Part shown: piece after piece, positions 28,404 through 32,889 of the stretch | How the letters are laid out: each line of letters begins with the position of its first letter | Numbering within the stretch: the stretch's first letter is position 1 | Assembly: GCA_900316955.1 (NCBI GenBank) | Contig: ONEX01000026.1 | Span: 1 to 35,255, forward strand | DNA length: 35,255 bases | Source: an uncultured Bacteroidales bacterium | Lineage (GTDB): Bacteria; Bacteroidota; Bacteroidia; Bacteroidales; UBA932 | Direction of reading: 5' to 3' | Program-made: the position numbers and the translations under genes | The notes under the pieces: generated by a model | The model's database searches: none | The model's input: only the letters and a program-made list of their open reading frames with translations | What the model was told of the DNA's origin: nothing

Positions 28404-30413
<2,010 letters not shown>

Positions 30414-30538: not shown

Positions 30539-30588
30539 AGCACGGCTGGGGGAACGTTTTTGTAGGTTTCCGTGCCCCCACGCGTGCT
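30539..30588. repeat. REP-like hairpin unit U1
   Basis: A 50-nt imperfect palindrome: an 18-bp stem with mismatches at stem positions 7, 8 and 15 and a 14-nt loop containing GTAG. It differs from U3 by a single base. Two nucleotides (CC) separate it from U2. Confidence 0.85.
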
Positions 30589-30590
30589 CC

Positions 30591-30640
30591 AGCACGGCAG
30601 AGGGAACGTTTGGGGCCCTTTTCGTGCCTCGCCGCGTGCT
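30591..30640. repeat. REP-like hairpin unit U2
   Basis: The second 50-nt unit of the downstream doublet, with outer AGCACG/CGTGCT. Inner GAGG/CCTC replaces GGGG/CCCC of U1, a compensated change. Its last base is the first base of the transposase stop codon on the minus strand. Confidence 0.85.
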
Positions 30641-31551
30641 CACTCTTTATACTTCTTCGACTTAAGCGCCTGAGAAATGATGCGGGCGGGAATGAATACG
30701 GCTTGCGACAAGGTGACTGCATCCAACCTGTATTTCCTGCTCAGCCGAACGGCCAAGGCACAACGGGCGTCGTTGGAGAGTTCGGACAGTTTTCGGCCCT
30801 CCATCATCAGCTCTTGCTTGACGATGTCTTTTGCCTCCCCCACCGAAAACGTTATTTCCTCCCCCAGCTGGTCGGCGATTTCGACAAATGCTTCGTAATC
30901 CTTCACGAGGCGGGTCTCAAATTCCTTCGCCGCCGGAAACACCTTATACAAAACGTCCATGTCCACGAAGCTTTGCGGCAATACCATTCCCAATCCCGGG
31001 TGAATCAAGCGGTCGGGAGGGATGGACACGTGCGTCTGAAACATCTTTCTGAGCGTCCGCACGGACAAGTCGCCAGCCCGGACCGTCTCGAACAGGCGGG
31101 GAAGATCGGAATAGAATGCCATGGACGAGCCGAACAAGTATCCGCCCGGTCGGATATTCAATACTTCGGAAGCGTTCCGCGCGATGTAAATGCCATTGTT
31201 TCGCATCTGATCCTCATCCCCGACAGGAATCAATTTGAAATCATAATCCGCCGGAAGCGGAGGATGTCCATCCGCCACCAACCGTCTGTTGATTCGGCTT
31301 CTCACATAGTCGAATACAGCCACGCAATGCTCCCCCCGCCCTGAAAGGAGCAGGTGGACATGACTTCGCATCACCTCATAGAAGTGCACTTTCACGGGAA
31401 ACAGCAGGTCCAGCAGGGATATCGTGTTGACCACATACACATATTCCGCTTCGTCGTGGCAGATCGTCCCTTTCTTTCCATCCGTTGATAGATGATAATA
31501 GCCCTTCTTCCAGGATTTATACTCGGCTCTTCTTTTCTGTCTTTTATCCAT
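30640..31551 (-). CDS. REP-associated HUH (Y1) transposase, RAYT-like
   Basis: A 303-residue protein. The HUH metal motif is MRSHVHLLLSG (His64, His66) and the catalytic tyrosine candidate is Tyr122 in GIYIARNASEV, matching the YIHxNP-type motif of Y1/RAYT transposases. The flanking KGYYHLSTDG start and VFDYVRSRI helix fit the family. A long C-terminal extension (~190-303) is probably regulatory or DNA-binding. RAYTs cut and rejoin single-stranded REP hairpins. Here the gene is bracketed by two REP doublets, the downstream one touching its stop codon, with a short hairpin (31569-31585) just upstream. Start 31551 (MDKRQ) is preferred; 31599 is an alternative. Confidence 0.8.
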   Translation of the reverse strand: MDKRQKRRAEYKSWKKGYYHLSTDGKKGTICHDEAEYVYVVNTISLLDLLFPVKVHFYEVMRSHVHLLLSGRGEHCVAVFDYVRSRINRRLVADGHPPLPADYDFKLIPVGDEDQMRNNGIYIARNASEVLNIRPGGYLFGSSMAFYSDLPRLFETVRAGDLSVRTLRKMFQTHVSIPPDRLIHPGLGMVLPQSFVDMDVLYKVFPAAKEFETRLVKDYEAFVEIADQLGEEITFSVGEAKDIVKQELMMEGRKLSELSNDARCALAVRLSRKYRLDAVTLSQAVFIPARIISQALKSKKYKE

Positions 31552-31568
31552 TTCGATCTTATTCTTTC

Positions 31569-31585
31569 CCCTGCTCCTAGCAGGG
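31569..31585. repeat. Short hairpin upstream of the transposase start
   Basis: A perfect 7-bp stem (31569-31575 with 31579-31585) with a 3-nt loop between the gene start and U3. It may be a leader hairpin or part of the transposon's sub-terminal structure. Confidence 0.45.
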
Positions 31586-31609
31586 ATTGTTCTTGTCAAA
31601 GTGCGTCAC

Positions 31610-31659
31610 AGCACGGCTGTGGGAACGTTTTTGTAGGTTTCCGTGCCCCCACGCGTGCT
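31610..31659. repeat. REP-like hairpin unit U3
   Basis: Identical to U1 at 49 of 50 positions and in the same orientation, on the other side of the transposase. The loop again contains GTAG. CC separates it from U4. Confidence 0.85.
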
Positions 31660-31661
31660 CC

Positions 31662-31711
31662 TGCACGGCAGAGGGAACGTTTCAGGGCTTTTTCGTGCCC
31701 CGGCATGTGCT
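31662..31711. repeat. REP-like hairpin unit U4
   Basis: The second unit of the upstream doublet, 50 nt, related to U2, with the outer arms TGCACG/TGTGCT only partly paired. It ends 27 nt before the end of the comF-like gene. Confidence 0.8.
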
Positions 31712-31738
31712 TGGGGGCTCGCCATCGCTTACTGAGGA

Positions 31739-32809
31739 TTACGGGCCGCCCGAAGGGGTGCCCTCGACGGCGGCGAGGGTGGCGATGGAGATGCGGGCGG
31801 TGGTGAAGGGGCGCAGAGCGGCGTAGCAGGCGTACAAGGTGGCGCCGGTCGTGAATGTGTCGTCCACGAGGAGGATGTGGCGGGCCGATGCGAGGACTTC
31901 GGCGGGCGATTCCCGGTCTGGCCGGGAATGACGGGTATCATCCTGCCCGGACGGTTCGCCTTCGTCATGGCCGACTTTGATCGTCCATCTGGGGGAACGG
32001 AAGGAGAAAATGTGGGACAAACGGCTGATAATCCGCGCCCTGGGAGAGAAGCGTTCGGGGACCTGAAAGGCGGAGGCGACGTTCCGGGCCTTCTGGTCCA
32101 CGGAGACGCGGGTCTGGGTGCGGGTGCGGCGGGCCCGGACGAGGAGGTCCGTCCGGACCTCGGGGAGATTCCGGGGCAAGCCCGGAATGACGGTCGAAGG
32201 GGCGCCCGGAATGACGGTCGAAGGGGCGCCGGAAGAGGCGGTGGGGGTGCCCCCTTCGTCATGGCCGGCTACGACCGGCCATCTTTCGGACGCGCCCGGA
32301 GGGGCGGGGGCGACACGGAAGGCGTCGGCCAGGGCGCGGGCGAGGATTTCGGCCTGGTTGTAGCCGCGGGAGCGGAGGCGGGTCCAGTGGAGGGGGACGG
32401 GGATGACCAGGTCGATGTCCGCGAAGTGCGGGGCGGTGGCGAGGCGGCGGCCGAGGAGGGCGCCGTAGTGCCGCCCGGCGGCCAGGTCGCCCTGGTACTT
32501 CAAGGCGCGCGGGATCGACCGGTAGGCGCCCTTGTAATAGAGCAGGGCGGCCGCGTAGGCATAGTCCATGGGCTCGGTCCCGCGGTGGCGCTCCAGGACC
32601 GCGTTGAAGCGGTCCGCGAGCGGGTTGTGCGGCGCGAGCCAGAAGCGCGTGTAGGGCACGTCGGCCGCGCACGAGAGGCACAGATGCCGCTCGCGCATGC
32701 CCAGCCTGCGTCCGCAGGCCAGGCACGCCCGCGGCATGAACAAATCGCCGAGGGCGATTACAAAGTCAATCATCCGCATCGTTCCATAGATTCTTCGTCG
32801 GATTGTCAT
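31739..32809 (-). CDS. comF: ComF-family phosphoribosyltransferase-like protein with two in-frame insertions
   Basis: A 356-residue protein. The N-terminal zinc ribbon has Cys29, Cys32, Cys44 and Cys47; HADIDLVIPVPLHWTRLRSRGYNQAE and the PRPP-loop HILLVDDTFTTGATL are typical ComF features. ComF proteins support DNA uptake or recombination, but in Bacteroidales the role is unclear. The family is about 230 residues; two extra blocks (~168-216 and ~260-305) are encoded by palindromic repeats and interrupt otherwise continuous ComF sequence. Both keep the frame. The protein may still fold if they are surface loops. Start 32809 is uncertain; MRMID at 32779 is also possible. Confidence 0.8.
   Translation of the reverse strand: MTIRRRIYGTMRMIDFVIALGDLFMPRACLACGRRLGMRERHLCLSCAADVPYTRFWLAPHNPLADRFNAVLERHRGTEPMDYAYAAALLYYKGAYRSIPRALKYQGDLAAGRHYGALLGRRLATAPHFADIDLVIPVPLHWTRLRSRGYNQAEILARALADAFRVAPAPPGASERWPVVAGHDEGGTPTASSGAPSTVIPGAPSTVIPGLPRNLPEVRTDLLVRARRTRTQTRVSVDQKARNVASAFQVPERFSPRARIISRLSHIFSFRSPRWTIKVGHDEGEPSGQDDTRHSRPDRESPAEVLASARHILLVDDTFTTGATLYACYAALRPFTTARISIATLAAVEGTPSGGP
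31885..32030. repeat. Repeat insertion A inside comF
   Basis: Two hairpins 31 nt apart: 31909-31916 with 31922-31929 (8 bp, 5-nt loop, ATTCCCGG/CCGGGAAT) and a second within 31961-31990 (ATGGCCGA...TCGTCCAT, one mismatch). The second matches the hairpin in insertion B at 25 of 30 positions. Outer limits are estimated from where ComF similarity stops. Confidence 0.7.
32160..32305. repeat. Repeat insertion B inside comF
   Basis: Hairpin 32168-32175 with 32181-32188 (8 bp, 5-nt loop) and a perfect 8-bp hairpin in 32262-32283 (ATGGCCGG...CCGGCCAT, 6-nt loop), the same module order as insertion A. Between them lies an exact 24-bp tandem duplication (32181-32204 and 32205-32228). Confidence 0.72.
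32181..32228. repeat. Exact 24-bp tandem duplication
   Basis: Two identical 24-bp copies, 32181-32204 and 32205-32228, encode the repeated peptide GAPSTVIP in ComF. Each copy starts at the 3' arm of the first hairpin, so the duplication probably arose at that hairpin. Confidence 0.85.
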
Positions 32810-32839
32810 TTTACTGAACGCGCGCTCCCGGCCTTTTCT

Positions 32840-32889
32840 GGCACGGCTGAGGGAACGTTTGGGGCACTATTCGTGCCCCGGCGCGTGCT
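32840..32889. repeat. REP-like hairpin unit U5
   Basis: A fifth 50-nt unit, single, upstream of comF and inside its predicted leader. Its outer arms are GGCACG/CGTGCT; the core GAGGGAACGTTT matches U2 and U4. Confidence 0.8.

Follow-up and report, generated by a model that had tools for sequence, protein, structure and literature searches.

Palindromic doublets around a RAYT-like gene

We analysed a 35,255-nt contig of an uncultured Bacteroidales bacterium (ONEX01000026.1, assembly GCA_900316955.1; the whole stretch is hereafter the window), in which a gene for a RAYT-like Y1-HUH protein (RAYT, REP-associated tyrosine transposase; REP, repetitive extragenic palindrome) lies between two pairs of 50-nt palindromic units. 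The gene occupies positions 30640-31551 of the minus strand and encodes 303 aa from an ATG at 31551; a longer open reading frame (ORF) starts from a TTG at 31599. A first-pass annotation, made from the sequence alone, had picked out five units, and our analyses place them at the same sites, all on the minus strand. In gene orientation, U2 (30591-30640) and U1 (30539-30588) are the first (A) and second (B) units of the downstream doublet, U4 (31662-31711) and U3 (31610-31659) are the A and B units of the upstream doublet, and U5 (32840-32889) lies upstream of a neighbouring comF-like gene. As described in that annotation, the two doublets bracket the gene with the same 2-nt spacer (CC on the plus strand in both); their start-to-start step is 52 nt. 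U2 had been said to abut the stop codon (30640-30642); the contact is there, but the two actually overlap by one base, as base 1 of U2 is the last base of the codon (30640).

A motif-free repeat finder recovered both pairs and the U5 region as one family (three 103-nt copies at 100%, 90%, and 63%), and all five units scored best on one common strand with both a weight matrix and a covariance model. The 50-column weight matrix found the five units in the window and none in one shuffled window, although their recovery is partly by construction since the matrix was built in part from them. U1 is identified by the repeat finder, the covariance model, and folding. U5 is identified by the weight matrix and the covariance model, and a relative (L057) offers a parallel in the full doublet upstream of its comF (2650-2751). 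A possible degenerate partner of U5 overlaps the comF start (32787-32837, minus strand); it is weakly suggested by direct-repeat family D1 (63%) and placed by analogy with L057, and the covariance model had no match there.

The unit consensus in gene orientation is approximately AGCACG-YG-nnnGGG-CACG-14 nt-CGTTCCC-TCAGC-CGTGCT. The palindrome is imperfect: its 18-nt arms contain internal mismatches and enclose a 14-nt centre that varies. When folded as single strands, U1 (z -3.8/-3.9) and U5 (z -2.6/-2.7) beat shuffled sequences on both strands, and U3 on the minus strand only (z -2.3; plus strand -1.3). Among 14 doublets of the window's family, direct alignment beats inverted alignment in 11, including all six that flank a gene. 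The A and B units also differ in kind (12 doublets, some of them orthologous sites and so not independent; 6 of 1000 random flips reach the observed value).

The reported 49/50 identity of U1 and U3 was borne out (0.98), compared with 0.82 for their neighbours U2 and U4. Both B units resemble the last downstream unit of L057 (0.84 for U1, 0.82 for U3) and the second upstream unit of L058 (0.82, 0.82). Since U1 and U3 are this alike despite the divergence of U2 and U4, and have their nearest units downstream in one relative and upstream in another, the sequences show that one unit has been copied from one side of the gene to the other, but not which way.

The window protein is predicted to have a RAYT/TnpA_REP-like fold, in agreement with the RAYT-like HUH transposase proposed at first, with an extra helical region at its C-terminal part (about residues 235-303). 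Residues H64, H66, and Y122 are conserved in 123/123 aligned proteins, a count that is favoured by the search profile, since H, H, and Y were already invariant in its seed (the alignment had 124 rows with the window protein twice; fragment L034 was excluded from both the tree and this count). The nearest paralog in the genome is 31% identical, so the gene is single-copy as an ortholog; in the wider sense the earlier claim of a single-copy gene does not stand, as the genome has nine family matches. The gene is under purifying selection, with nonsynonymous substitution (dN) far below synonymous (dS).

A family of genes with arrays of near-constant period

Of 200 genomes of the genus, 164 contain members of the protein family (profile search, E 1e-20), with a maximum of at least 11 per genome among the best 11 candidates scored. 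In an order-wide draw of 295 genomes, two matched, both of this genus and thus of one genus out of 183 (E 1e-15, best seven candidates per genome). From 141 ORF hits we assembled a pool of 124 distinct genes, leaving out L001-L016 and L054-L056. The fractions below apply to this pool and not to the genus, because 60 loci were hand-picked from the genus-wide match list, favouring high scores and room on the contig.

We scanned 400 nt on each side of every gene over repeat lags of 25-124 nt and recorded the best one, with control flanks taken further out. The best lag was 52 in 55 of 243 flanks and 51 in 42, and it fell within 49-54 in 107/243 flanks compared with 19/230 control flanks. The first scan used 12 shuffles per flank; when repeated with 30 shuffles and control flanks tested alike, a 49-54 lag beat all shuffles in 90/243 flanks and 9/230 controls. 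Among the 119 genes with both flanks available, such a significant lag was present on both sides in 21 and on one side in 46 (0 and 6, respectively, in 106 controls). A second group of best lags at 82-85 nt was found in 23/243 flanks (controls 6/230).

Where both sides showed a strong lag, the two were equal in 31 of 36 genes and within one of each other in 33. The period also tracks the protein tree (FastTree), with 14 changes compared with at least 24 in 200 shuffles; for 82-85 versus 50-53 it takes one change, and at least six in shuffles. Rows with no period label or an odd one (63, 74, 75; 47/123) were left out of this test. Downstream arrays start at most 31 nt from the stop codon in 50 of 55 detected cases, and the 52 detected upstream arrays end a median of 133 nt ahead of the point where the profile match begins. 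Unit numbers upstream and downstream are correlated (Spearman 0.59, n=34, cut at 450 nt, not corrected for kinship), and symmetry exceeds all 40 permutations in 56/101 flanks.

Unit sequences vary widely from gene to gene. In the main clade the unit centre keeps CAAAA...CGT (50-68% per column), with CAAAA in 22 of 44 units (2.3 under the null) and in 9/26 units of other clades (null 1.7). Arrays outside the window's own unit family were detected by direct lag, a search biased towards direct orientation. An A-B doublet as the universal repeat of all arrays was considered and rejected: among 25 arrays with at least four units, the two-unit lag was clearly better in five and the one-unit lag in four.

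Some individual loci were also observed. The family member at L032/L098 (G016 C4) has rows of 74-nt repeats on both flanks, each several hundred nt long. Of the paralogs in the window's genome, five (L019, L020, L022, L023, L024) are accompanied by their own repeats, whose best lags are 50-52 nt, L021 showed no repeat, and L018 has a different, longer palindrome type.

A resident locus next to comF

The neighbours that mark the resident locus of the window gene are the comF-like gene (31739-32809, minus strand) and, on the other side, a P-type ATPase gene (28404-30413, plus strand). Across 18 related loci, from Bacteroidales/Bacteroidia metagenome-assembled genomes (MAGs) of which many come from rumen or other ruminant gut, comF adjoins the gene in 11, down to about 52% protein identity, with the ATPase nearby in eight of these and ahcY in seven. 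The comF genes of L064-L066 are merely 34-36% identical. No comF was seen in the remaining seven loci, whose proteins are 37-46% identical and one of which is a 3.3-kb contig.

At the comF loci L062-L066 (proteins 52-61% identical) the weight matrix of the window units found no match. A 52-nt lag is nevertheless present upstream in L062 and L063 (both weakly) and L064 and on both sides in L065; L066 has no clear 52-nt lag. The row sequences thus change while the gene stays at the comF locus: it is inherited in place, and the repeats turn over. Array size differs as well, with 11 weight-matrix matches around the gene of L074 compared with 4 around the window gene.

The comF-like gene has repeats of its own. 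Within its frame are two CGTC-type REP-like palindromes at 31908-31933 and 32167-32192 on the minus strand (CGTCATTCC...GGAATC), along with a tandem repeat of 24 nt (32180-32227, perfect). Exact matches to the pattern occur in 16 of 199 loci examined, several of which overlap.

Unit copies elsewhere in the genome and in relatives

Copies of the unit also occur elsewhere in the genome, as the first-pass annotation had anticipated; they are few and mostly doublets with the 52-nt step. A 20-nt pattern taken from the units had 16 whole-genome matches (at most three mismatches) compared with two for the reversed pattern. The first eight matches (0-2 mismatches) comprise the five window units and three in two places elsewhere; by the covariance model described below, the genome has two pairs of units outside the window.

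A covariance model of the unit (40 units from this and near genomes; best 30 candidates per genome; E 0.01) was run on the 200 genomes of the genus. At least 9 distinct units were found in the window's genome (G000), at least 15 in G003, and at least 10 in G088, which carry close orthologs (100%, 80%, and 95% identity, respectively); of the rest, seven genomes had one to three units and 190 had none. Repeat number thus follows the gene, a check that the first-pass annotation had suggested, but the match is partly by construction because the model drew on units of these very genomes. In the protein searches, only G028 among the rest scored like these three genomes, and its protein is 38% identical. 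At least 17 units were found in G225 (89% ortholog), and among more distant homologs there were seven matches in G227 (70%) and none in G231-G233.

In G000, G003, G088, and G225, 11 of 16 sites away from the gene consist of two or three units 50-52 nt apart, some at sites common to several genomes. The doublet on contig C30 is matched by one at the corresponding position in G226 and G224 (which share coordinates with G003 and G088 and are taken as the same genomes), and G229 has no counterpart of it; the C16 doublet also has no counterpart in G229. By eye, the dispersed doublets on C30 and C101 lie after a stop codon, and those on C16 and on G225 C48/C84 adjoin a terminator-like hairpin. The latter two (L182, L183) have, also by eye, a similar unit triplet beside a similar terminator-like hairpin in one MAG, which could mean either that a piece was duplicated or that the assembly mixes two strains.

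Comparison with known systems

The window's system shares with RAYT/REP systems (REPtrons) the HUH-Y1 fold, as predicted by modelling, and the catalytic motif (PMC2817692, PMC8266576), a resident gene between cognate palindromes with copies elsewhere in the genome, orthologs that hold their position as palindromes change, and a repeat number that follows the cognate gene. According to Nunvar et al. 2010 (PMC2817692), a RAYT gene always lies between two REPs in inverted orientation and the two co-evolve; REPs usually exceed 100 per genome, and homologs that suited their criteria came from gammaproteobacteria only. In contrast, the gene-flanking units here are direct and copies number at least 9 in the window's genome and at least 10 to at least 17 in its nearest relatives, so an ordinary REP doublet system is a poor fit. 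The system also differs in its units of about 50 nt in direct tandem rows with a clade-linked period, and in its protein, which is larger (about 300 aa) and has a helical region at the C-terminus and a Y..RN motif.

In known enzymes, GTAG and the CT or CA cleavage sites each play a part (PMC8266576), and RAYT/REP systems have a conserved GTAG-type tetranucleotide at the hairpin foot. GTAG, the sole tetranucleotide looked for in our units, occurs on either strand in 2 of 40 aligned family units, namely in the centre of U1 and U3, and we rejected it as a cleavage motif; the earlier caution that it may be coincidental seems justified. Because of the direct tandem rows, the clade-linked period, and the lack of GTAG, we call the family RAYT-like and not a member of RAYT/REP. 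In most GTAG and CGTC families, head-tail dimers are missing, under-represented, or negligible (PMC3733652).

The mere presence of palindromes next to RAYT genes of Bacteroidetes has a precedent in TnpA_Y1 subclass 2.6 (RAYT group 5), a Bacteroidetes group with atypical flanking secondary structures and genomic copies (PMC6006769), features that our family shares. That subclass is listed with 179 aa and the motif YIH[QN]NP, whereas our proteins have about 300 aa and Y..RN, a comparison made by eye from the motifs quoted in that paper. The words tandem, array, and direct repeat are absent from the main text of that paper, and we saw no description of such tandem arrays among the open-access papers listed by our searches. 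As with REPINs, the palindrome doublet is the commonest dispersed form, but REPINs consist of two inverted REPs (PMC8049555), whereas the gene-flanking doublets here are direct and their A and B units differ in kind. The TnpA proteins of IS200/IS605 elements (IS608, ISDra2) share the Y1-HUH fold and imperfect hairpins on both sides; our system differs from them in showing no sign of gene movement and in having arrays instead of single ends.

Interpretation and alternatives

We consider it probable that the window gene encodes a resident RAYT-like (TnpA_REP-type) Y1-HUH protein that cuts and rejoins its own tandem palindrome arrays in whole units. The fold, the catalytic residues, the clade-linked arrays, the in-place array change, the copying between U1 and U3, and the few dispersed copies, mostly doublets, are shown by the sequences or by modelling. 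When the array is single-stranded (on the lagging-strand template or in repair), its units may fold into hairpins. The enzyme could then recognise the unit centre (CAAAA...CGT in the main clade) and the stem, make its cut close to the 2-nt spacer by way of a 5'-phosphotyrosine link, and rejoin equivalent sites. Arrays would therefore grow, shrink, and homogenise in whole units, a doublet would now and then be inserted elsewhere, and the fixed period would mirror one enzyme footprint per unit.

Several results weigh against this reading. No significant 49-54 lag was found on either side of 52 of the 119 genes with both flanks (controls 100/106), and two-unit lags (98-108) were no commoner than in controls (29/243 vs 26/230). 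At the comF locus, L061 has no clear 52-nt row. Symmetry was weak (z under or about 2) in 35 of 101 flanks, including the window's upstream pair (1.3), and neither U2 (z -1.3/-1.1) nor U4 (z -0.7/-0.3) folds better than shuffles on either strand; since these two, and partly U3, fold weakly when taken singly, the case for palindromes rests on the unit family. Pairing covariation in the window's family does not exceed that of shuffles (0.083 vs 0.082; 30 of 500 shuffles pair equally well), and three of the 14 doublets, each of them dispersed, match no better in direct than in inverted alignment. Units also occur without a close ortholog, with two in G150 (a strong doublet close to the end of a contig, in a fragmented assembly where no close gene was seen), three in G169, and six matches in G234, which has a 41% homolog. 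Lastly, comparison with empty sites, which the first-pass annotation had proposed, did yield counterparts without the doublet in G229, but they differ by about 250 nt (C30) and 163 nt (C16) instead of 102 and so are not clean insertions.

As an alternative, the arrays could be double-stranded binding sites, either autoregulatory operators or chromosome-organising sites, perhaps bound via the C-terminal helical part, with catalysis on the arrays incidental. The constant period with variable sequence would suit such a role, as would the extra helical region and the position of the arrays at the stop codon and close upstream of the gene. The 52-nt period is about five helical turns, and 83 is likewise close to whole turns, with 50, 51, and 74 less so (arithmetic only). 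Nonetheless, we regard this as unlikely, considering that the three catalytic residues are conserved throughout the aligned proteins, that imperfect palindromes with internal mismatches and a variable centre are unlike a plain operator, and that an operator role alone leaves the dispersed doublets unexplained.

It is less probable still that the units are RNA hairpins of untranslated regions, acting in termination or mRNA stability, with tandem copies made by ordinary slippage. This would be consistent with the downstream arrays at or near the stop codon (50/55 genes with a detected array) and with the dispersed doublets seen after stop codons or by terminator-like hairpins. However, terminator-like sites around the gene are not in excess (three found, one at U3; 3.1 expected), there was no Rfam match at gathering scores, and slippage does not account for the clade-linked periods, for their equality on the two sides of a gene, or for the association with a single protein family. 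Finally, the doublets could be the two ends of an IS200/IS605-like transposon in which the gene and its flanking repeats still move together. This would fit the direct left and right doublets (90% alike over 103 nt, much as the hairpins at IS608 ends are direct and alike) and the many paralogs per genome, but it is the least credible of these readings and already largely refuted by the comF neighbour in 11/18 loci, the lack of a near-identical second gene copy (next best 31%), and no relative in a pattern-based scan of viral contigs. The mobile or recently mobile unit of the first-pass annotation is likewise rejected, on the first two of these grounds and on dN far below dS.

Beyond the resident enzyme acting on its own array, we suggest more tentatively, at somewhat less than even confidence, that the family is a radiation, confined to this genus, of orthogonal enzyme-array pairs, of which one genome often has several, each with a private hairpin array whose period depends on the clade of its enzyme. 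Such pairs would form an array-type REP system that differs from inverted REPINs and in which the protein is the ruler, the array is the thing maintained, and dispersal is a by-product. RAYT/REP is a known case of a transposase turned resident. With many enzyme-array pairs in one genus, each with its own sequence and a near-equal period, the setting of repeat length and the rewriting of arrays by an enzyme become testable, and because the arrays are compact, strain genomes can show where whole units have been gained or lost.
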